Of a DNA stretch of 64,000 bases, positions 1,258 through 24,157 are shown piece by piece (positions within the stretch are counted from its first letter, which is position 1; each line of letters opens with the position of its first letter). Source of the stretch: Desulfosudis oleivorans Hxd3 (GTDB taxonomy: Bacteria > Desulfobacterota > Desulfobacteria > Desulfobacterales > Desulfosudaceae); NCBI RefSeq assembly GCF_000018405.1, contig NC_009943.1, positions 3,537,001-3,601,000 on the forward strand. Reading direction: 5' to 3'. The notes below the pieces were generated by a model that was not told the origin of the DNA, searched no databases, and was given only the letters and a program-made list of their open reading frames with translations. The translations under genes and the position numbers were made by a program.

Positions 1258-1375
1258 CATAAAGAATTGAAGGGGGGCATCAGGGGGTTTTATAAGGGGA
1301 AAAAAGATAGAACCTCAAATTGATGGTCATTGGGTGTTGTGAGCGCTCATGCAGTGCTTTTTCAAGCCACTTTAT

Positions 1376-1858
1376 ATGATAAACACACGCCAAATCATTG
1401 TCGGTATCACGTTCTTATTCATCGGGGCTCTGGTATACCTGTTTGACCGACCTGCTGACATGACCTACCTGGTCTATACTAACCCTTTTAATTTAAGCTT
1501 TTACGGGCTGTTTCCACCTGTATTCGGCTTCCTGGGTAACACCCTTCCCGCCTTTCTGCATGTAGCTGCGTTTATCCTGCTGACCGTTGGTGTTTCTGGC
1601 TGGGGACGAAAAACATACCTGCCTGTCTGTCTCTTCTGGCTTATCGTTGACGCCGGGTTTGAACTGGGCCAGAAATACAGCACCAATATTGCTAAAGCGA
1701 TACCCGGCTGGTTTGACGATATCTATCTTCTGGAGAATACTAAAAACTATTTTGTATTTGGAACATACAGCAGCCTTGATTTGGTGGCAATACTGTTGGG
1801 CGGTATTGCCGCTTATGGCATTTTGATCTATACGGAAATCAAAAGGGGGGAAAAATGA
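1376..1858 (+). CDS. Small integral membrane protein, unknown function
   Basis: 160 residues from ATG 1376 (MINTRQIIVG). A longer reading starts at 1349, but neither start has a convincing ribosome site. About four hydrophobic segments are visible: residues 7-25, 57-75 (LPAFLHVAAFILLTVGV), 85-98 and 137-155. Charged loops such as DDIYLLENTKN lie between the third and fourth. I do not recognise a family. The stop overlaps the start of the next gene by ATGA (1855-1858), so it is translationally coupled to the FISUMP-domain protein and the two may share a job at the envelope. Confidence 0.6.
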   Translation: MINTRQIIVGITFLFIGALVYLFDRPADMTYLVYTNPFNLSFYGLFPPVFGFLGNTLPAFLHVAAFILLTVGVSGWGRKTYLPVCLFWLIVDAGFELGQKYSTNIAKAIPGWFDDIYLLENTKNYFVFGTYSSLDLVAILLGGIAAYGILIYTEIKRGEK

Positions 1859-2694
1859 AATTCAGTCGCAATCTGTTGACATCAATCCGCTACACCTGCC
1901 TGCTGGCAGTTATTTTAATTGGTTTTGTGGCCATTGTCGGCACGGGCGGTGGAGGCGGTGGAGGCGGTGGGGGCGCAACGACACCGGCGACAACTACTGA
2001 CAGCGATAATGATGATGATGATGGAGGGACAGGAGATACGACACCAAACGCCTCTTGCGGCGCATACGTGGCCCCGGGCGTATGGAAAGAGTTTGACTGC
2101 TATAACTTGGCCGCCATCGGCAAGACCACTGGTGATGATCCCTTCACCCCGTCCTGGAGACTGATCGGCGGTTATTGGCAGTGGGGCCGGAAAGGGCCAT
2201 CTTCCAGTCAGTGGTACGATACCAACACATCCAATTTCGCCCATGGTCCTACCGGGCCAGGATCAAGTGAAGCAAACGATGGTGCCATTAGCGCCTGGGA
2301 TGCATCTGATGCACCTGACGGTGCCTTGTCAGATGCATTCAAAACCTCCAATGATCCCTGCCCTGCCGGTTATCGAGTGCCTACCGAAAGCCAGTGGACG
2401 GGTGTTGATGCCAACAACGCCCAGAGTATTGTTGGATCGTCGTGGTCAGAGAGCATAACCAACTACAGCAGCGCTTATTTATTCGGTGATGATTTGATGT
2501 TGCCGGCCGCCGGGCTCCGGTACGACTACAGCGGCTCGTTGTACCGCCGTGGCAGCCACGGCTACTACTGGTCCAGTACTGAGTATTCGGGGGGCATCCG
2601 CAGCGCCTGGACCCTGTACGTCCGCAGCAGCAACGCCGCCACGAGCAGCCACTACCGCAGCTACGGGGGCTCGGTGCGGTGTATCGCAGAATAA
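1855..2694 (+). CDS. Exported FISUMP/C-type-lectin-fold protein, candidate DGR target
   Basis: The N-terminus is a membrane-targeting helix (LAVILIGFVAIVG) followed by ten glycines and a Thr/Asp-rich linker, a layout common in surface proteins of sulfate reducers. From about residue 60 it has the marks of the FISUMP/DUF1566 branch of C-type-lectin folds: PCPAGYRVPTESQWTG, LPAAGLRY, YYWSSTEY and a terminal GSVRCIAE. These domains display variable residues, and several families of this fold are DGR targets. The last 57 codons switch abruptly to NNC codons (37 of 57, against 21 of the 59 before by my count), mostly AGC, CGC, TAC and GGC, as expected if AAC template codons had been mutagenised. 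The gene is coupled to 1376-1858 by ATGA. No reverse transcriptase or template repeat is in the window. The binding partner is unknown. Confidence 0.75.
   Translation: MKFSRNLLTSIRYTCLLAVILIGFVAIVGTGGGGGGGGGGATTPATTTDSDNDDDDGGTGDTTPNASCGAYVAPGVWKEFDCYNLAAIGKTTGDDPFTPSWRLIGGYWQWGRKGPSSSQWYDTNTSNFAHGPTGPGSSEANDGAISAWDASDAPDGALSDAFKTSNDPCPAGYRVPTESQWTGVDANNAQSIVGSSWSESITNYSSAYLFGDDLMLPAAGLRYDYSGSLYRRGSHGYYWSSTEYSGGIRSAWTLYVRSSNAATSSHYRSYGGSVRCIAE
2521..2691 (+). other. Candidate DGR variable region
   Basis: These are codons 223-279 of the FISUMP protein. 65% of them end in C, with varied first and second bases (TAC, AGC, CGC, GGC, CAC, GCC, ATC, GTC), while the invariant-looking framework YYWSSTEY and GSVRCIAE keeps ordinary codons. 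In DGRs, adenines of an AAC-rich template are randomised into the target's 3' end. The pattern fits but is not proof, because no template copy lies in this window. Confidence 0.4.
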
Positions 2695-2798
2695 ATTAGA
2701 CTATTTGTCTATTTGACTATTTCGTTTTTGCCCGGGCCTGCCGGTCCGGGCAGAAAATAAAACCAGGGATCGCGGAGCGGCCGAAATTGTTTTTCAAA

Positions 2799-2978
2799 AT
2801 GACGCTACAAGAGAAACTGACCCGTGAAACGGGCAGACAAATTTATCTGTACAAGCAGGGGGTGTTCTGGGCCGCCTATAAACAGAGCGCCTTGCTGCTC
2901 AAAAAATGTAAAACAAAAAACCATGCGGTTTTGCCTGTACAAATCATATTGCTGATACTGTGTAGGTTAGCCATATGA
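2799..2978 (+). CDS. Short MutS-domain-I-like ORF, probably truncated DGR accessory (MSL type)
   Basis: 59 residues from ATG 2799 (a TTG at 2787 is an alternative). The core LTRETGRQIYLYKQGVFWAA followed by YKQSALLL resembles the opening of MutS domain I, in which a hydrophobic strand precedes a G-x-F-Y/W turn and a helix with a conserved Ala. MutS-like (MSL) small proteins are a described class of DGR accessory. After KKCK the sequence turns into an unrelated hydrophobic tail, so the ORF seems cut and fused to foreign sequence. Its TGA overlaps the ATG of the next gene at 2975-2978. The position just downstream of a lectin-fold target supports a DGR remnant. The MSL match is from memory of the family, not from a search. 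Confidence 0.45.
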   Translation: MTLQEKLTRETGRQIYLYKQGVFWAAYKQSALLLKKCKTKNHAVLPVQIILLILCRLAI

Positions 2979-4375
2979 AGAAATTGTCTACTATACCTGT
3001 TCAATTATCAATTGCCTGTGCTGTGATCCTTTTATCCCTCTCAACAGCCCGTGCCCAGGAAATCCACCTTCACGTCCCCCATTTTGCCGGGAGCCATTAT
3101 GAATGGAAGATTTTTCAAGGCAAACAAGAACTCACCGTCCGCTCCGGCGAAATCTCCCCGGACGGCCGGGTGATCCTAACCATGCCCGATCCCTACCAGG
3201 ACTACCGCGGCATGACCCGGTGGCTGCTCAAAAAAGGGGGCGGCCTGGACATGATCTATACCGGCAAAGGTTTTTCCGTGGAATGCCTGTCAGAAAAGCC
3301 AAATTCCGATAATATCATCTACACCGGCAATCCGGAAAATGACTACCTGGAATCCCATCACTCACGTCAGCAAACCATCCTGGGCAAACTGGGGGCGGTC
3401 AATCACTTGTTACAGGTATATGCACCGGATGAAAATCTTCATAAAATTGCCCTGGACGAACAGACACATCTGCGCCAGGCATTTTCCCAGGTCCAGGCAG
3501 ATCGGGCCGAAAGTTTACTGTATGCAGCCCGGTTCGGAAAAATCGTGGACTTTACCAAGGGTATAGCAGACAAAATTTATGACAACCCCGAAGACCATAC
3601 CACGTATTTCAACGACTTTGTAACCCATACCCTGGATTTCAAGGACCTATATACCAGCGGCCATTGGGACCAGGTACTGCACCACTGGGTGATGATGAAT
3701 ATCCGGTCCGGCAAAGGAGACCATGCTTTCATCGAACGGATGGAATCTGCCATGTCCCGCATGAATCAGGATAATATCCTGGCAGCCTTTGCAGAAAAAG
3801 CGGTGCCGTTGCTGGTGGAAAAAGGCAAAGATGACCTGTTGCCTGCGATTGCAGATCACTTGGAAAACCGGCCTGCGGTTCAGGCCGCCTTATCCGGCAG
3901 TGTGAAAAATATGATGGCCTCGGTGAAGATGCTGACCGGGAAAAAAGCCCCGGATCTGGTTTTTCATGCCCCGGTACGGACCCAGACCAAAACAAGCGCC
4001 GAAGATATAATCATTAAAACCGGCAACCTGGATGCAGCCCATACCATCCTTCTGTTTTATCAGGGTGAATGCCCCTTGTGCGAGAATACCCTGATTGACC
4101 TGGCTAACAAATATCAACAGCTCAAAGAGCAAAATGTTCGAGTGATCGCCATTAGCGCAGACATGACCGATCAGGGGTTTGAAGATAAGCTTATCTATCA
4201 CCAGTGGCCGGATAATTACTGTGATTTCACCGGAATGGCGGTAGAGAATTTTACCAAATATGGTGTCTTGGGTGTCCCGACTCTCTTTCTGCTGAATCAA
4301 GAAGGAGTGGTAGTGAAAAAGACAGCCATGATGGATGAATTGATGGAGATTCTTGACAAGAAAAAGCCATTTTGA
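2975..4375 (+). CDS. Exported TlpA/AhpC-like thioredoxin-fold protein
   Basis: 466 residues with a clear signal peptide (LSIACAVILLSLSTARAQ, cut near residue 27). Residues about 28-320 form an N-terminal region of the DUF4369 kind found with Bacteroidota TlpA-like reductases. The C-terminal 130 residues are a thioredoxin fold with the active-site motif CPLC (FYQGECPLCENTL) and the cis-Pro region GVLGVPTLFLLNQEG. It should act as a periplasmic thiol-disulfide oxidoreductase; the partner is unknown. The codon style and domain layout look Bacteroidota-like, and it sits between two broken lectin-domain loci, so transfer is plausible. Start ATG 2975 overlaps the previous stop. Confidence 0.75.
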   Translation: MKKLSTIPVQLSIACAVILLSLSTARAQEIHLHVPHFAGSHYEWKIFQGKQELTVRSGEISPDGRVILTMPDPYQDYRGMTRWLLKKGGGLDMIYTGKGFSVECLSEKPNSDNIIYTGNPENDYLESHHSRQQTILGKLGAVNHLLQVYAPDENLHKIALDEQTHLRQAFSQVQADRAESLLYAARFGKIVDFTKGIADKIYDNPEDHTTYFNDFVTHTLDFKDLYTSGHWDQVLHHWVMMNIRSGKGDHAFIERMESAMSRMNQDNILAAFAEKAVPLLVEKGKDDLLPAIADHLENRPAVQAALSGSVKNMMASVKMLTGKKAPDLVFHAPVRTQTKTSAEDIIIKTGNLDAAHTILLFYQGECPLCENTLIDLANKYQQLKEQNVRVIAISADMTDQGFEDKLIYHQWPDNYCDFTGMAVENFTKYGVLGVPTLFLLNQEGVVVKKTAMMDELMEILDKKKPF

Positions 4376-4380
4376 ACACT

Positions 4381-4521
4381 ATGTCGTCGTACTATTGATC
4401 GTCTACTACCTTCGCGTACGATACGGACAACGCCTGGCTCGTGCATTTCAGCGACGGCTACGGCAGCAACTACGATAAGTCGAGTATGTACTATGTGCGG
4501 GCGGTTCGCGGCGGACAATGA
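4381..4521 (+). pseudogene. DUF1566/Lcl lectin-fold domain, C-terminal remnant
   Basis: Reads SSYY-stop-SSTTFAYDTDNAWLVHF and then DGYGSNYDKSSMYYVRAVRG to TGA 4519. This is the standard end of a DUF1566 domain, in which the stop at 4396 replaces the Trp of the YWSST motif (TGG to TGA). No upstream part is present, since the sequence abuts the end of the TlpA-like gene. Together with the intact FISUMP protein 1.7 kb upstream this marks a site where lectin-fold genes were exchanged. Confidence 0.6.
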
Positions 4522-4915
4522 TGGGTGATTTGGTGATTTTTCAGAATAAAGGCTTTTGGAGTAAGGTCAAGGAATCAAGGCAGGGTAGAAGCTCCCAGGC
4601 CCATTCAGAACCTTTTCAGGAGATCTGCATTCGATTTCCAGGAACGGCCTTTGCCCGGGAGGCCAAAATATTGAGCCGGGAAAAGTGTCCTTAAAGAAAA
4701 AAAGGCCGAATAGCGTCGGTAAGGAGTCTCATTATGAATAGGTCCTGACGGTTAAATCATAAGGGCACTTTCATGTTTTCCGTGTGAGAATCCGTGTGAG
4801 ACTTTTTGTCCAAAATAGGGTAAAATCGGCAAAAATCAGAAAAAATGTAAAATAAGAAATCCTTTTATTTAAGAAAGTTACGGAATATTAAGGAGGTTAG
4901 GAAGCTCGAGGGCTC
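4522..4915. other. Non-coding stretch with CCGTGTGAGA direct repeats
   Basis: No gene is visible. CCGTGTGAGA occurs twice, 12 bases apart, at 4780-4789 and 4792-4801. Short tandem motifs of this kind beside a tRNA-type att site resemble the arm sites found inside neighbouring integrated elements, so this may be the edge of an older element whose integrase is gone (inference). The last bases before the tRNA-derived repeat, GGAGGTTAGGAAGCTCG at 4891-4907, look like a shortened, mispaired tRNA 5' half. Confidence 0.35.
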
Positions 4916-4963
4916 TGACTGGCAGTCATGAGGTCAGGGGTTCGATCCCCCTCAGCTCCACCA
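4916..4963 (+). repeat. Left att repeat (tRNA-Ala GGC 3' half)
   Basis: Contains anticodon loop CTGGCAG (anticodon GGC), T arm AGGGGTTCGATCCCCCT, acceptor strand CAGCTCC and the encoded ACCA. The bases before it do not give a full D arm (about four bases short) and pair only 5 of 7 in the acceptor, so I do not call a working tRNA. Confidence 0.8.
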
Positions 4964-4971
4964 AAAAAATC

Positions 4972-5009
4972 AAGGGTTTAGGCAATAACAGCCTAAGCCC
5001 TTATTTTTT
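4972..5009 (+). terminator. Rho-independent terminator after the left tRNA half
   Basis: A 12-bp perfect stem, AAGGGTTTAGGC paired with GCCTAAGCCCTT, with a 7-base loop and then ATTTTTTG. Confidence 0.8.
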
Positions 5010-5021
5010 GATATGTCATTT

Positions 5022-5040
5022 TATCCCGCTATAGTCCCGC
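5022..5040 (+). repeat. Element-end repeat, candidate integrase arm site (left)
   Basis: TATCCCGCTATAGTCCCGC, repeated exactly at 10457-10475 and in part at 10591-10609, always just inside an end of the element. Tyrosine integrases bind arm-type sites in such positions. Confidence 0.45.
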
Positions 5041-5055
5041 TTTTTTATTTTCAGG

Positions 5056-5084
5056 GCAAAAAAAAACCCCGGATTTCTCCAGGG
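5056..5084 (-). terminator. Terminator of the HhH-domain gene
   Basis: On the minus strand CCCTGGA, loop GAAA, TCCGGGG, followed by a run of T. It lies just beyond the stop of the gene ending at 5127. Confidence 0.65.
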
Positions 5085-5126
5085 TCCTTTTTGGTTCTGA
5101 TACCGGGTTAATTCGCTCCCCCGGCG

Positions 5127-6167
5127 CTACCTAATCACGTTCTCAACTCTATCGGCGTCGCGGTTCTTTGTTATGCCAGCGCAGTAGTCACGAATTGTCT
5201 TTAGCTTTGATTGTCCGATACCTTTGATGCTAAGCAGCGTTTCATCAGGTGCGGCTGCAATGCGGTTCGGGGTCTCTAAGCCCAATTCGGATAACTCATC
5301 AATTGCCGCGCTAATCTTGGGAATTGTGTCGATAAATTCCGGGAAAAATTGTCTGATAATTTTTTCTATACCACCATGCTTTTCTATATATGTTTTCCAG
5401 TCGCTCGCCATAGGCATCTCACGTAATTTTTTGATGCGGTTTTCAATAGGTTCATCGAGTTCAACAACTCTCCTGATGGCAATAAGAAAAGGCAAATAAT
5501 CAGCAGGCAAAACCAGCCCCACATCAGACGCATGTGTTCCCGGTGCCACTTCATCTACATCACAGCCAAGTTCTCGAAACGTTTTTGTTTTAAAAACCCA
5601 GATGCCTTCCCACATCTCCTTTATGATTTTGGGCGGCTTCGTGTTTATATTCGTGTGGATTTCGCCATGCCGCAGCAACACACGTAGCGGGGTGCGAAGC
5701 TGCAAAGTCGCACTAAATTGTAACCCATGGACAACGTCTTGATTGTCTTTCCATGTCCCAATCTTATTATTTTGACTTTCCTCGATTGTTGTAATGATTT
5801 TAGGCTTTGGCTGCGCAGCGCTCATTTCTCGCGTTTCAGCCTCTACCTCAGCGATACTGGTTTCTACCGCTTCCAAGTTTTCCAAGTGAAGGAATGGAAA
5901 TTTCTTTTCCATTGTTCTTAGCTCGGTAAGTGTATCACGCGCAACCCGCAATCTGGATTCCCGCGTCTCCCGGTTCTTGGACTTATTGGCTATATTAAGG
6001 GACTCCGTGAACACCCGGAGAAGGTCTCCCGCGCACTTCTGGGCCACCAACTTATCTCTTTCAGAAAACGTATATTCATTACGGACAGTCTTGGTGGATC
6101 GGGTTTGCTCACCTGGCTCAGCACTTGCTCCGAAAATCAATCTTTTAAATATACCTTTGATGCTCAT
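5127..6167 (-). CDS. Hypothetical element protein with C-terminal helix-hairpin-helix
   Basis: 346 residues, family not recognised. Residues 55-120 are strongly charged and probably coiled coil. The middle (about 130-240) is mixed alpha/beta. The last 50 residues contain PDETLLSIKGIGQSKLKTIR, a helix-hairpin-helix motif of the IKGIG type that binds DNA backbone non-specifically. Such tails occur in DNA-processing cargo proteins, but no catalytic motif is visible. It is the leftmost gene of the integrated element, has its own terminator, and is separated from the plus-strand lipoprotein by a 288-base divergent region. Confidence 0.6.
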   Translation of the reverse strand: MSIKGIFKRLIFGASAEPGEQTRSTKTVRNEYTFSERDKLVAQKCAGDLLRVFTESLNIANKSKNRETRESRLRVARDTLTELRTMEKKFPFLHLENLEAVETSIAEVEAETREMSAAQPKPKIITTIEESQNNKIGTWKDNQDVVHGLQFSATLQLRTPLRVLLRHGEIHTNINTKPPKIIKEMWEGIWVFKTKTFRELGCDVDEVAPGTHASDVGLVLPADYLPFLIAIRRVVELDEPIENRIKKLREMPMASDWKTYIEKHGGIEKIIRQFFPEFIDTIPKISAAIDELSELGLETPNRIAAAPDETLLSIKGIGQSKLKTIRDYCAGITKNRDADRVENVIR

Positions 6168-6363
6168 TACGTGGCCCCCCCTATGTGCTTGATAAGGCCT
6201 TGTTTCTATTTTTTCTAATTCTGATATTGCTTGATCAGAAAAGCCAGAATAACCCTTCCCGGTAAAATTACAAAGAAAAATTAACGGCCATAATTGCCCC
6301 AGGATTGATTTTCTTTCTTTCGGTCGTTTCTCCCCCTCCCTACCTTGACAACCACACCCAACC

Positions 6364-6393
6364 TTGACCCTTCACTGACTTATCTGGTATATG
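6364..6393 (+). promoter_or_regulatory. Possible promoter for the DUF4468-like lipoprotein
   Basis: TTGACC, 18 bases, TATATG, ending about 60 bases before the start codon. A second TTGACA at 6345 has no good -10. A 10-base G run lies just before the ATG and could act as the ribosome site or vary in length. Confidence 0.35.
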
Positions 6394-6455
6394 AATGGGG
6401 GGATAAAGCAAAACCTGTAAAGTCTAATCGTTTACAAACATAGGGGGGGGGGACC

Positions 6456-6944
6456 ATGAAAAAACTTTTTATTATCTTTTTATCGTGTATTTTTCTTTTT
6501 TCTTGTGTATTTGCAACGCAAAGGCAGGAATGCGAAAAAACATTCTTTAAGGTTTTTGAGGCACCAGGCTACACCAAAGACCAAATTTATAAAGGTATGA
6601 AGATTTGGGTTGCTGAGAACTTCAGGTCTGCAAAATCGGTTGTTGAGCTTGACGAACCAGAACAAGGGCTTTTGATCGGCAACGGCGTTGTTTCATATCC
6701 ATGCAAAGGTATGGGTTGCCTTAGTGTTGGTGAGTGGCGAGTCCCCTTTACAATGAGAATCGACGTCAAAGATAATAAGTTTAGGCTATCGTTCTCAAAC
6801 CTTCAGATTTCAGCACAAGGCTATGCGGAACAGCCAATATATTACCAAGCACACGTAGATAAAATTAAACCGGTTCTTTTGGCCTTCGGTGATGAGATCA
6901 TCACAGCGTTAAACCAGAACAAAAAAACGACTTCAGACTGGTAA
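6456..6944 (+). CDS. Small lipoprotein with DUF4468-like domain
   Basis: 162 residues. Residues 1-17 are a lipoprotein signal (FLSCIFLFSC, acylated Cys about 17). The mature part begins with CEKTFFKVFEAPGYTKDQIY and continues ENFRSAKSVVELDEPEQGLL and GNGVVSYPC, the pattern of the DUF4468 (TBP-like fold) family: an amphipathic helix, then strands with a short glycine turn. Such proteins sit in the outer or inner membrane, and their function is unknown. It is the only plus-strand gene of the element, so it is probably cargo expressed in the integrated state. The ribosome site is the G-rich run directly upstream. Confidence 0.7.
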   Translation: MKKLFIIFLSCIFLFSCVFATQRQECEKTFFKVFEAPGYTKDQIYKGMKIWVAENFRSAKSVVELDEPEQGLLIGNGVVSYPCKGMGCLSVGEWRVPFTMRIDVKDNKFRLSFSNLQISAQGYAEQPIYYQAHVDKIKPVLLAFGDEIITALNQNKKTTSDW

Positions 6945-6997
6945 GAAAACTTTATTTTGGTGATCGCCGGCCCTACGGCCTCCTGTGAAGTCGTGGC

Positions 6998-7147
6998 GAC
7001 GTTTCCGCGCGTGCGTGGGTCATGGGTCAATTTGTTGTGCTGTGAGTTGGAGCGGATAGACGTTTCCGCGCGTGCGTGGGTCATGGAAAACCTAAAAAAG
7101 CCTAAAATTCAAGCCGCTCTTTTTCCCCGCGCGTGCGTGGGTCATGC
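6998..7147 (+). CRISPR. Three-repeat CRISPR-like mini-array inside the mobile element
   Basis: Copies at 6998-7025, 7059-7086 and 7120-7147 share CGCGCGTGCGTGGGTCATG. The first two are identical over 28 bases; the third is degenerate at its 5' end. The period is exactly 61 bases both times and the two 33-base spacers are unrelated. The repeat has an internal G.T-tolerant dyad (CCGCGC/GCGTGG). A 28+33 layout equals that of type I-E arrays, including the one at 53 kb, but the repeat differs from it. No cas genes are nearby. Third-copy decay and the low copy number leave tandem regulatory sites as an alternative. Confidence 0.5.
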
Positions 7148-7390
7148 TGCCAGCTCCGCCGCCTCACACCTTGCCAGAAATGCCGCCGCTGTCTCATCCG
7201 CTCCCCGGTGATATGTTCGCCCATGCTTTGCCGGTGTGCCGCTCTTTATGACCATTAACAATTCTTCCGGCGTGTTTTGTCCGGCAATGGAGCAATCCTC
7301 CACATATATGTGAATTTCAACCGGCTCCCAGTCAATCGGTGCCATTACCTTTTCAAGTGCTTCAATCCTGGTTTTCAGATTATTATTCAT
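7142..7390 (-). CDS. Small element protein, paralogue of its upstream neighbour
   Basis: 82 residues, family unknown. The opening MNNNLKTRIEALEKVM, then EPVEIHIYVED, lines up with the next gene's MNTIKKRLAKLETQ and EPFHIIRW, so the two are probably duplicated. A short coiled coil is followed by a small strand-rich part. It overlaps the upstream gene by 8 bases. Its stop codon lies inside the third copy of the mini-array repeat. Confidence 0.55.
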   Translation of the reverse strand: MNNNLKTRIEALEKVMAPIDWEPVEIHIYVEDCSIAGQNTPEELLMVIKSGTPAKHGRTYHRGADETAAAFLARCEAAELAA

Positions 7391-7571
7391 GGTTCACCAC
7401 CTCTTGGCCCTGATGGACCTCGTCGTGGACCTGGACAAATCCGTCCTCGCCAACATAGTATTCCCGCTCGGGTCCTTTCGTTGACCCCCATCGAATAATA
7501 TGGAACGGCTCAAATTGCTGCCGGTCCTTTTGAGTTTCCAACTTGGCCAACCTTTTTTTAATTGTGTTCAT
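7383..7571 (-). CDS. Small element protein with N-terminal coiled coil
   Basis: 62 residues from ATG 7571 (MNTIKKRLAKLETQKDR). A longer reading to 7592 lacks support. It is similar in layout to the gene downstream (coiled-coil start, then an EPFHIIRW-like strand) and contains GPEREYYVGEDGFV. Genes of this kind recur in small integrative elements, but I know no function. It overlaps both neighbours. Confidence 0.5.
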   Translation of the reverse strand: MNTIKKRLAKLETQKDRQQFEPFHIIRWGSTKGPEREYYVGEDGFVQVHDEVHQGQEVVNHE

Positions 7572-7848
7572 TTTTCGATGCCTCCTGTTCAAGTTTTAAA
7601 ATTCGTGATTCAAGGTCGCCGTCTTTGATAATGCCCATCAAGACGCTGCATAAATATCCAAGCACGCGGGCTTTCCCATCAACAATTTTATCGGCGTCCA
7701 GTTCGTTTAAGGTTCGCGCCATGAAGCGCCTCAGGTCCGCAAGGGTCTTGACCCGGATCGCCGTTTTCCGCTTGCCCCCCGGGGGGGGTGTGCTTGAAGC
7801 CTTGCCCTTGTTGCCCTTCCCTGGTTTTTTCTTGACCGTTTCTTTCAT
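7558..7848 (-). CDS. Small basic element protein
   Basis: 96 residues. The first 30 are very basic and Lys/Gly/Pro-rich (KKKPGKGNKGK), and the rest is helical: KTLADLRRFMARTLNELDAD, then DLESRILKLEQEASKNEHN. It is probably a nucleic-acid-associated or regulatory protein of the element, with no named family. The three genes 7142-7848 overlap in series and form one minus-strand transcript downstream of the replication and integration genes. Confidence 0.55.
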   Translation of the reverse strand: MKETVKKKPGKGNKGKASSTPPPGGKRKTAIRVKTLADLRRFMARTLNELDADKIVDGKARVLGYLCSVLMGIIKDGDLESRILKLEQEASKNEHN

Positions 7849-7866
7849 AAATACCGCCTTTCGCTG

Positions 7867-8073
7867 TCATAAAGTCGCCCGCCTGTTTCTCCCGTGGGTC
7901 ATCCCTATCGCAAGCCCGTTAAGCCGTGCGTCGCTTGCTTTAAAAGCTTGGTTAAAAAAAACAGGCTGGCATGGTAATATATATACATCAACGGTTTCGT
8001 TGCCCTTAATTGCATTTTCTGTATTTGTGCCTAAAATAGCCTGAATCCCTATCAGTTCTAAATTTACAGCCAT
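7867..8073 (-). CDS. Possible small element protein
   Basis: 68 residues from ATG 8073. No motif is recognised, and there is no clear ribosome site. It fills the gap between the iteron-like repeats and the small-gene cluster on the coding strand. It may be spurious. Confidence 0.3.
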   Translation of the reverse strand: MAVNLELIGIQAILGTNTENAIKGNETVDVYILPCQPVFFNQAFKASDARLNGLAIGMTHGRNRRATL

Positions 8074-8086
8074 TTTTAACCTTTTT

Positions 8087-8161
8087 TATGGTTACGTTTA
8101 CGTTGCCCTTAATTAAGGCTTATGGTTACGTTTACGTTGATGTGTATGGTTACGTTTACGT
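8087..8161 (+). repeat. Iteron-like direct repeats
   Basis: TATGGTTACGTTTACGT occurs three times, starting at 8087, 8121 and 8145. The repeats sit directly beyond the stop of the putative replication gene and may be its binding sites, hence a candidate origin for the excised element. Confidence 0.5.
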
Positions 8162-8170
8162 ATGCGAGTT

Positions 8171-8635
8171 TTATTTTTTTGGATCACAAAACCCACGCTT
8201 AACGGTTTCCCTTTCTCTCGCCTGGAATGTCATTCCCGGTTTCCATCTCAACCAGTTGTCAGATAGGGCATAAACGGCCTTGTCGTGCCGATACAGCCCC
8301 CCCGGGTGAACAACCGATAGAAAGCCCTTCTCCAATAGCTGATCTATTGCCCTGGTCAACTTAGGCTGCGTGATGCCGTATTTCCCTTTAAACTCTGTGT
8401 ATGGAATGTTGATATTTTTGCCGTTCACCAGTACCCACTTTTCTTTTCCCTTACGTCCCTGCTTCTCAAACTGTCGCTTTCCCAAAACCAAAATTAAAAG
8501 CTGTGGACTGAATCCCGACAATGATAAATATGCCTTACTTTCTATCATTTCCCGGTCGATCCAAATTTTTCCAGGTAACTTTGCCAAGGTTCCCCCGCCA
8601 TAGCCGTTCTTTGAGATATAACTATTCCTTGCCAT
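8171..8635 (-). CDS. Putative replication/winged-helix protein of the element
   Basis: 154 residues from ATG 8635 (MARNSYISKNGYGG). The longer frame to 8794 would overlap the xis-like gene too far. Residues about 35-60 (LSLSGFSPQLLILVLGKRQF) and 75-125 (INIPYTEFKGKYGITQPKLT, RAIDQLLEKGFLSVV) look like a winged helix-turn-helix with the recognition helix around YGITQPKLTRAID, as in Rep initiators and phage replication proteins. Iteron-like repeats follow its stop. It overlaps the gene upstream by 14 bases and is therefore co-transcribed. No catalytic replication motif is seen. Confidence 0.55.
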   Translation of the reverse strand: MARNSYISKNGYGGGTLAKLPGKIWIDREMIESKAYLSLSGFSPQLLILVLGKRQFEKQGRKGKEKWVLVNGKNINIPYTEFKGKYGITQPKLTRAIDQLLEKGFLSVVHPGGLYRHDKAVYALSDNWLRWKPGMTFQARERETVKRGFCDPKK

Positions 8636-8897
8636 GCTCGGATATGGCATCACCCTCGGTTTTCCGGGTCCGGTCAGGGACAACCGCGCTGCGTGCCTCA
8701 AGCCATTCAATAAAAGAAGCGACGGGATATGAAATTTTTCTGCCGGTTCGGATTCGACCCTTTGGGCCTTTGCCCTGGCAGTCAAGGTTTGCAAGATATT
8801 TTTCTGAAATTATGCCGCCGGTGAAGTGCTTGATTTCCGTCCTTGCGACGAAACTTGACGGCCATTTTGACGCGAGTTCTTGAAAGACTGATTCCAT
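8622..8897 (-). CDS. Excisionase/AlpA-like helix-turn-helix protein
   Basis: 91 residues with GGAGAG upstream of ATG 8897. The centre, ISEKYLANLDCQGKGPKGRI followed by RTGRKISYPVASFIEWLEAR, is the MerR-like winged helix of the HTH_17/AlpA excisionase group, where GPxxxR...YxxxDLxxWLE makes the wing. It probably directs excision with the nearby integrase and represses or activates the element's early promoter. The dyad-rich region 9047-9124 lies upstream. Confidence 0.7.
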   Translation of the reverse strand: MESVFQELASKWPSSFVARTEIKHFTGGIISEKYLANLDCQGKGPKGRIRTGRKISYPVASFIEWLEARSAVVPDRTRKTEGDAISEHGKE

Positions 8898-9046
8898 TTT
8901 TTACTCTCCTTTTGTCAAAGAAGAGCGCACAAAAAAAGAGGACATGCGCTGATCTTAGACCTAACAAAAAATCGTTAAGTTTAAGGCCAGGGCCTTGCCC
9001 TCTTTATGGATCATCCCGCCGCCTGTCTTGGACTCCCCCTTAGGGA

Positions 9047-9124
9047 ATATCACTGTAACTGCCGTACAGTATAGTGATATAGGCGGTGTAAATATTTCCT
9101 TGCCACCGGACGGCCGTACCGTCC
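9047..9124. promoter_or_regulatory. Dyad-rich control region of the element
   Basis: The 307-base gap between xis-like and integrase genes holds ATATCACT...AGTGATAT (9047-9080) with a nested ACTGTA...TACAGT, and a hairpin GGACGG/CCGTCC (9108-9124). These are likely operators of the xis/rep transcript or the terminator of the integrase gene. The rest of the gap (8898-9046, 9125-9204) shows nothing else. Confidence 0.45.
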
Positions 9125-9204
9125 TGTGTTTATCGCTTATACTCTGGGATGTGTTATGTCAAGCTTTTTTTGATCCTCTGCTTTCCGGTCTCACTTTGAA
9201 AAGT

Positions 9205-10434
9205 TCACAACACCTGCCCGGCATTCTTTTTCTTTTTCTGCCCGTTCGTTTTAAATGCCGCCTCCAATGCCGCCGAGCCCTCTCTCAATCTGTTTTCGGT
9301 CATCTTCGCATATCTTTGGGTCATGGTGCTTGTAGTGTGCCCAAGTGACTTCTGGGTTAAATACAGGTCGTGTGTGCTTTCGTAAAGGTGCGTTGCATAA
9401 GAATGCCGAAGGGTATGAAATGTCACTTTTTGCTTTCTGTCGGTGATTCCCTGGTTCAAGCCTAACTCTTTGACTACCCTGGAAAAGGTTTTTGAGGCGC
9501 GCGCTATTGAACCATCAAGCCCGGATCGCTTTTGAAATATAAGTTCGTTTGGTGCCCCTTCTTCTCTGTTTTTCAGCATAGCCTTTGCCCGTGTCGTCAA
9601 GTATGCGGTTCTTGATCCTGTTTTAGCGTCCAGGATCGCCAGGGTTCCCGCTTTCCAATTTACGCAACTCCATGTTAACTTCGCAATCTCGCCAAAGCGC
9701 AAACCAGAATGAAGGGATAACAGCGCCATGTCATGAAGGTTGTGACTTTTTGCCGCCAGTGCATCAAATAGCTTTTCAGCCTCGTCAATGCTTAAATAAC
9801 GCATCTTCATGTTATCCAGCTTCGGCCATTTAACGGCGCTCGTCGGATTTTCGCCGGTATAGACTCCACGCTTTCGCGCCATATTAAAAACCTGTCGGGT
9901 TACTTGCAATGCATATTGAATGGTTCGGCCAGCTTTCTTTTTGTCGGCCATAGCTTTCTTGACCCGTTCAACGTGAAAAGCCGCTATTTTACCAAAGGGA
10001 AGGTTTCCTATTGTTTCGGCCAGGTGGACCCGGTAAAGGGCTTCTTCCATTGCATAAGTCGTCGGTTTTTTGTCGCGCTTGCATTGCGGAAGGTACGTTT
10101 CAGCCATGAAACGGCCAAAGGTTACGTTTTCCTTTTCGGCCAACTGTCGCGCTTGCTTGTCGGCATCTTTGCGTTTGTCCTCAATAGCCCGCTTCTCTGC
10201 CAGGGTTTGCGGACCTTCCCCGGTCTTTCGGTTTTCCTTCAATTCCTTTAAACGATCATAAGCCTTTGCCGCCGTCCAATTCTCTGAAGCCCAACCAAGC
10301 CCCTCTTCGCGGTCTTTCCCGGCCAACTTGTAACGGATCGTAAAATATTGATCGCGCTTGACTCCGTTTTTCCTGGTCGGATGTTCTTTATATCTCACTC
10401 CCGGAAAGGTCGTTTTTACCCATTTTCCAGCCAT
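9205..10434 (-). CDS. int: Tyrosine recombinase (phage-type integrase)
   Basis: 409 residues, the full length of the family. The N-terminal 75 residues contain an arm-binding-type domain (VRYKEHPTRKNG...YFTIRYKLAGKDREE), followed by a SAM-like core-binding domain (about 105-195) and the catalytic domain. Catalytic motifs are visible: SGLRFGEIAKLTW (first Arg), a Lys in the beta turn, HTLRHSYATHL (His-x-x-Arg), LGHTT and TQRYAKM (nucleophilic Tyr). It cuts and joins att sites; the 48-bp tRNA-derived repeats on both sides are its evident substrates. It is transcribed inward from the right end. Confidence 0.93.
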   Translation of the reverse strand: MAGKWVKTTFPGVRYKEHPTRKNGVKRDQYFTIRYKLAGKDREEGLGWASENWTAAKAYDRLKELKENRKTGEGPQTLAEKRAIEDKRKDADKQARQLAEKENVTFGRFMAETYLPQCKRDKKPTTYAMEEALYRVHLAETIGNLPFGKIAAFHVERVKKAMADKKKAGRTIQYALQVTRQVFNMARKRGVYTGENPTSAVKWPKLDNMKMRYLSIDEAEKLFDALAAKSHNLHDMALLSLHSGLRFGEIAKLTWSCVNWKAGTLAILDAKTGSRTAYLTTRAKAMLKNREEGAPNELIFQKRSGLDGSIARASKTFSRVVKELGLNQGITDRKQKVTFHTLRHSYATHLYESTHDLYLTQKSLGHTTSTMTQRYAKMTENRLREGSAALEAAFKTNGQKKKKNAGQVL

Positions 10435-10456
10435 AACAAGCCCCCGTTTTTGATTC

Positions 10457-10475
10457 TATCCCGCTATAGTCCCGC
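10457..10475 (+). repeat. Element-end repeat, candidate integrase arm site (right)
   Basis: An exact copy of TATCCCGCTATAGTCCCGC from 5022-5040, directly upstream of the integrase gene. A related copy with AGTCCCGCCATAGTCCCGC lies at 10591-10609. Together they form a plausible right arm. Confidence 0.45.
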
Positions 10476-10727
10476 CAATTGCCATAAAGTCTTTTAATAT
10501 CTATATGTTACAGTGCAAAATTATTTCGTGCCCTGTTTTATGACAATTTCCCGTTTCATTGATAGAAGCCTTTATCTAAGCCCGGTTTCCAGTCCCGCCA
10601 TAGTCCCGCTTTTGTGTCTGAAACAGTATGTTTTTAAATGACGCTTTAGGAAAAACAATAAAGGATAATTCTTTGATTGTCAAAGGGTTTATGTGATAAA
10701 AGGACATTATAGGAAAGTCTTAAAATA

Positions 10728-10775
10728 TGACTGGCAGTCATGAGGTCAGGGGTTCGATCCCCCTCAGCTCCACCA
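10728..10775 (+). repeat. Right att repeat (tRNA-Ala GGC 3' half)
   Basis: Identical over 48 bases to 4916-4963. Upstream bases are AT-rich and do not form a tRNA 5' half, so this is the displaced copy. Confidence 0.85.
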
Positions 10776-24016: not shown

Positions 24017-24157
24017 GGCAACAAGGGCCTCCCCTTTAAAAGATAAAGACCGGTCTTGGAATCGAACCAAGCGGCAGACTTTTCACGGTTGCCCGGCGGG
24101 GTTGAAGCCCGCGGCCGGCGCCAGCCGACTATACCGGTCACATCATCCGGACGGTCG

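Follow-up and report, generated by a model that had tools for sequence, protein, structure and literature searches.

Remnants of diversity-generating retroelements (DGRs) are known from Treponema denticola, where target lipoproteins persist in strains that have neither reverse transcriptase (RT) nor template repeat (TR) (PMC4891356). In the DGR of BPP-1, a hairpin 3' of the variable region (VR) is needed for homing (PMC3240598), and MSL (MutS-like) proteins have been described as DGR accessories and assigned to PF01624 (PMC10053308). In our literature searches, we found no papers on orphan DGR targets, on MutS-like proteins or on FISUMP domains in connection with retroelements. The closest complete systems that we found are two DGRs of Bacteroidota with C-type-lectin targets. 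In a Prevotellaceae MAG (L062), the order is target with FISUMP-type VR, hairpin, MSL-Avd fusion gene, TR and RT, the Avd half of the fusion being recognized both by the PHROGs family 'Avd protein of DGR' (E 1.4e-13) and by Pfam bAvd. The DGR of a Bacteroidaceae MAG (L070) has a FISUMP-type VR, MSL, TR and RT in the same order, and in both systems VR and TR correspond without any change of framework.

Here we describe a locus in Desulfosudis oleivorans Hxd3, within a 64,000-nucleotide stretch of the chromosome (the window), that shares with these MSL-type DGRs the type of target, an NNC-coded VR at the 3' end of the target gene, a candidate hairpin and then the putative start of an MSL, and that differs from them in that TR, RT and most of the MSL are missing. 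As in the T. denticola remnants, the target gene has outlived the core DGR; unlike there, a truncated accessory gene is kept and the target domain stands behind the export leader of another gene. Very probably, the locus is a decayed DGR target. Its kind is thus already known from T. denticola, and what can be learnt from the present case lies in the piece of accessory gene, in the apparent swap of one lectin domain for another and in the thioredoxin-like partner.

The target protein and its predicted fold

1855 to 2049, plus strand: export leader, poly-glycine run and acidic linker, similar to the N-termini of long Lcl_C-type lipoproteins of a genome of the same family (G002; E 9e-10) and collinear with gene B of locus L074
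2050 to 2691, plus strand: FISUMP-type C-type-lectin-like domain, the putative DGR target (TIGR02145, E 3e-8; 62% identical homologue in a Desulfotignum MAG; model matching 8q4e)

The target gene (1855-2694) encodes a protein of 279 residues, in which a leader with a long glycine run and an acidic linker precede a FISUMP-type domain that begins at residue 66. Scores stay below the curated cut-offs of TIGR02145 and PF09603 (34.5 vs 41.65 and 25.9 vs 33.9 bits, respectively), and the kinship with FISUMP proteins is therefore based on homologues that are 46-62% identical. The nearest relatives come from Desulfotignum MAGs (62 and 58% identity) and from Bacteroidota; a second, partial Desulfotignum relative (L052), on a contig that stops within the FISUMP domain, is 84% identical over 84 residues. 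Among 57 relatives from the same family or order, the FISUMP domain has no match in any other genome, the few matches obtained falling on the leader, and given this patchy distribution the domain has probably been acquired. The target protein has no match in phage records and only three weak ones, to FISUMP or Lcl_C proteins, in viral contigs.

The predicted structure has a mean pLDDT of 78.8, rising to about 90 over residues 71-279, and aligns with the C-terminal domain of Legionella Lcl (8q4e; Z 8.5, rmsd 2.8, 96 residues), the remaining rows of the structure search being mostly C-type lectins. Judged by this model, the target has a C-type lectin fold, and the same predicted fold is common to FISUMP and Lcl_C domains. 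Cysteines C68, C169 and C276 are invariant in the FISUMP alignment, and C82 is nearly so. FISUMP domains also occur in tandem: a 2711-residue protein encoded at 937-9072 of L057, from a Bacteroidetes MAG, contains at least seven of them.

The 3' end of the target gene carries an NNC signature

2521 to 2691, plus strand: variable region (VR) with NNC signature, 37 of 57 codons being NNC, and 18 of 20 at the AAY positions of the L070 TR

A first-pass annotation, made from the sequence of the window, had counted 37 NNC codons among the 57 of this region and 21 among the 59 just before it (2344-2520), and both counts are exact. Outside the VR, the target gene has a lower share of NNC codons (74/222) than within it (Fisher p = 3e-5). 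When 57-codon windows were drawn from the other genes of the 64 kb, a fraction of 7e-5 of 14,838 reached 37 NNC; it counts against the signature that one gene elsewhere in the window likewise attains this value.

For a position-wise comparison, the TR of the complete DGR in L070 served as template, its translated peptide aligning with the window without gaps from the YWSS motif onwards, and only approximately, in an ungapped alignment, upstream of it. Of the 20 window codons aligned to AAC or AAT in this TR, 18 are NNC (binomial p 4e-7 at background NNC) and 19 are NNY, and none encodes K, E, Q, M or W. The first-pass annotation had also claimed randomised first and second bases within the NNC codons, and it is at the template's AAY positions that this pattern is found. 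Relatives in contexts without a DGR (L053, L055 and L058, where for L055 this refers to the vicinity only, a DGR-type RT being present on another contig of its genome) have NNC at 4-7 of the same positions. Among homologues whose C-terminus is complete, the closest one (L051) is intermediate, with NNC at 14 of the 20; that it has no DGR near by counts against a DGR origin of the signature.

These data have to be weighed against the view that the target is an ordinary FISUMP gene in which selection drives rapid change of the binding loops, the surplus of NNC reflecting codon bias and the open reading frame at 2799-2978 being a product of chance. FISUMP domains are generally hypervariable at the positions in question, also in contexts without a DGR, and the genome background of C among NNY codons is 0.63. 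Since amino-acid variability is common to all FISUMP domains, our argument rests on the third-base C and on the neighbours of the VR. C ends 37 of the 42 NNY codons in the VR, as opposed to 74 of 137 in the remainder of the same gene (Fisher p 5e-5), and an ordinary gene would require three independent coincidences, namely NNC where the template has AAY, the hairpin, and the beginning of an MSL in the syntenic place. We regard this explanation as very improbable.

A hairpin and a probable MSL fragment follow the target gene

2729 to 2752, unstranded: GC-rich hairpin with a 10-bp stem and a 4-nt loop, no T-run after it, 34 nt past the target stop codon (stop at 2694); L062 has a hairpin at the corresponding place
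2799 to 2909, plus strand: probable 5' piece, ~37 codons long, of an MSL (MutS-like) DGR accessory gene, sharing 49% identity with the beginning of the L062 MSL (MSL profile, E 5.7e-5)
2910 to 2974, plus strand: putative deletion scar, without similarity to RT or TR, at the site where the complete order in L062 and L070 places the rest of MSL/Avd, TR and RT

The 64 kb contain four hairpins of such quality, and five block shuffles gave none. The loop reads TGCC on the sense strand and thereby departs from the GRNA sense-strand consensus of phage DGRs. A role as transcription terminator was considered and rejected, as a T-run follows on neither strand and no terminator is called at the site. Both elements recognized in the first-pass annotation, the VR and the MSL fragment, are supported by these data, and the hairpin would join them as a third one, independent of the two and suitably placed.

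The fragment that starts at 2799 reads MTLQEKLTRETGRQIYLYKQGVFWAAYKQSALLLKK, and the identity given above is to the MSL start of a complete DGR. A profile built from the MSLs of L062, L070 and L059, when run against the six-frame translation of the window, selects this open reading frame only, the next match having an E-value of 0.9. In the first-pass annotation, the whole frame of 59 amino acids (2799-2978) had been likened to MutS domain I, to be checked with HMMs of the MSL and MutS_I families; the resemblance to MSL stands for the first ~37 codons, the rest of the frame is unrelated, and PF01624 does not detect the fragment, which is too short for it and has no Pfam match at all. Even the full-length MSL of L070 reaches just E 0.21 against PF01624. 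The shortness of the match counts against the DGR reading. MSL queries found nothing in viral contigs, nor did a BLAST search with MSL in 395 genomes of the phylum, a result of little weight in that it comes without a known positive. The MSL, and with it the cassette, breaks off at codon ~37, and the thioredoxin-like gene described below begins about 65 bases further on.

A comparable locus is present in a Bacteroidales MAG (L059), where a decayed DGR at 6300-7214, made up of an MSL that an in-frame stop interrupts and of the truncated start of an RT, lies between a FISUMP gene and a thioredoxin-like gene. The truncated RT is 42% identical to the RT of L062 over 50 residues (E 2e-6), and an RVT_1 search of the L059 genome is without match. 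L059 is an earlier stage of a like decay, belonging to a second and independent series, and it independently puts MSL and RT between FISUMP and thioredoxin. With one locus at this intermediate stage, the order of loss becomes testable.

The chromosome holds neither reverse transcriptase nor template repeat

The chromosome is complete and consists of a single contig of 3,944,167 bases, on which the RVT_1 profile has no match; the same search recovers DGR RTs in other genomes. The statement of the first-pass annotation that no RT lies within reach hence extends to the entire chromosome. Patterns that allow every base of the VR to be an A in the template match, chromosome-wide, the VR alone, and by the same method the TRs of L062 and L070 are recovered at 0 mismatches. 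BLAST of the VR against the chromosome likewise gives no template-like copy, the best other match being 31 bases long. The genome-wide search for an RT and a template copy, which the first-pass annotation had proposed as a check, has thus yielded neither. That annotation had held that the lack of a template copy would speak against a DGR; it is, however, exactly what a decayed cassette predicts.

Two alternatives had been put forward there, an orphan target served in trans and a decayed cassette. Service in trans, whether from a DGR at another place in the cell or from an element that visits it, would fit the intact open reading frame, framework and hairpin of the target, and remote targets are known in T. 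denticola (PMC4891356). Against this, the chromosome contains no RVT_1 match and no TR-compatible sequence, in searches that each found their positive controls. Because the complete chromosome is devoid of RT and TR, we favor a decayed target over one served from elsewhere in the genome, and consider continued service in trans extremely unlikely.

Further retroelements were encountered in genomes of the same order and family. One genome of the order (G051) has 43 nearly identical RVT_1 matches, which stem from the proliferation of a single retroelement, perhaps a group II intron. On contig 10 of G002, a seemingly complete DGR of the FGE-sulfatase type (L039) comprises an RT, an Avd-like gene and an asparagine-rich TR.

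The cassette probably interrupts an Lcl_C lipoprotein gene

1349 to 1858, plus strand: conserved membrane-protein gene, overlapping at its stop with the beginning of the target gene; a same-family genome (L015/L074) has a homologue of 53% identity
4384 to 4521, plus strand: stranded 3' end (138 bases) of an Lcl_C lipoprotein gene, with an Lcl_C match, aligning to the last codons and the stop of gene B in L074

In G002, the homologue of the membrane-protein gene overlaps by 4 nt with a lipoprotein gene that ends in an Lcl_C domain. Collinearity of the window with this arrangement extends over 1376 to about 1909 and resumes at 4384, lasting up to the stop at 4521; the stranded end contains an in-frame TGA at 4396-4398, where relatives have Trp. 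On the simplest reading of this alignment, the segment from FISUMP to thioredoxin would have replaced the middle of an Lcl_C lipoprotein gene, the leader of which is still in use and the 3' end of which was left behind. The displaced gene would have been an Lcl_C (DUF1566) gene, and the C-type lectin fold is common to both proteins; the present target domain differs in being of the FISUMP type, and of the Lcl_C gene no more than the final 138 bases are left.

Alternatively, and for the split gene only, the FISUMP-MSL piece and the Lcl_C 3' end could stem from two adjacent genes joined by a deletion, with no insertion involved. Tandem Lcl_C lipoprotein genes do exist in G002, but gene B of that genome corresponds to the locus on both sides, at one end in its upstream neighbour, the 4-nt overlap and the leader, and at the other in the stranded 3' end. 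We hold a two-gene deletion to be the less likely reading.

A thioredoxin-like gene accompanies FISUMP genes

2975 to 4375, plus strand: secreted thioredoxin-like gene with a CPLC motif and an AhpC/TSA-Redoxin domain (Pfam PF00578, E 3e-10), with homologues directly 3' of FISUMP genes in L053, L058, L059 and L077

Three of these homologues (L053, L058 and L059) were obtained with a FISUMP query, and L077 with a thioredoxin query. A thioredoxin search of 395 Bacteroidota genomes found the gene in Phaeodactylibacter only, together with a second FISUMP-thioredoxin pair. Since the gene is present in just 1 of the 395 genomes, its pairing with FISUMP is unlikely to be due to chance. The CxxC protein next to the target may help to form disulfides of the conserved FISUMP cysteines.

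Proposed origin and decay of the cassette

4928 to 4963, plus strand: attachment-site duplicate of the tRNA-Ala(GGC) 3' end at the right end of a 48.5-kb island, one of three identical 36-mers in the genome

The copies of the 36-mer are located at the end of the intact tRNA-Ala(GGC) gene (3,493,360) and at 4928 and 10740 of the window, and a phage-type integrase gene (PF00589) follows the tRNA-Ala gene. The target locus lies at the right end of the 48.5-kb island in this tRNA gene. The first-pass annotation had recognized neither this island nor the thioredoxin-like neighbour or the split Lcl_C gene. An Rfam call of a tmRNA at 4909-4963 was rejected, as the sequence is the tRNA-Ala 3' end duplicated by integration.

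We propose that a cassette of FISUMP target with VR, hairpin, MSL, TR, RT and thioredoxin arrived on, or into, the tRNA-Ala island and came to sit inside the Lcl_C lipoprotein gene, whose leader would now export the FISUMP domain and whose 3' end would be a pseudogene piece. At an earlier time, adenines of the TR would have been miscopied by the RT, such that AAC codons entered the VR as NNC, a process that has presumably stopped since. Most of the MSL, the TR and the RT would have been deleted later, either before or after arrival. As its reading frame has stayed open, the target gene probably yields a binding protein of frozen specificity, located at the surface or in the periplasm. Going further, FISUMP target, DGR and thioredoxin might form a mobile module that is carried by Desulfobacterota islands and can insert downstream of the export leader in a lectin-like gene of the host, so that a diversifiable C-type-lectin domain takes the place of the original one, with the thioredoxin as dedicated folding partner; this broader view is speculative and, at present, improbable.

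The locus puts the course of DGR decay on view, with the core lost and target and hairpin kept, and suggests that diversified lectin domains can be transferred to the export leader of a different gene. Genome surveys that start from the RT would miss such stranded targets, and the combination of NNC codons, hairpin and MSL start offers a way to find them.

Further features of the window lie downstream. Between two of the tRNA-Ala 3'-end copies, 4964-10775 constitutes a second integrated element of 5.8 kb, with an integrase-like open reading frame at 9205-10434, and a selenocysteine tRNA gene is located at 24047-24139 on the minus strand.
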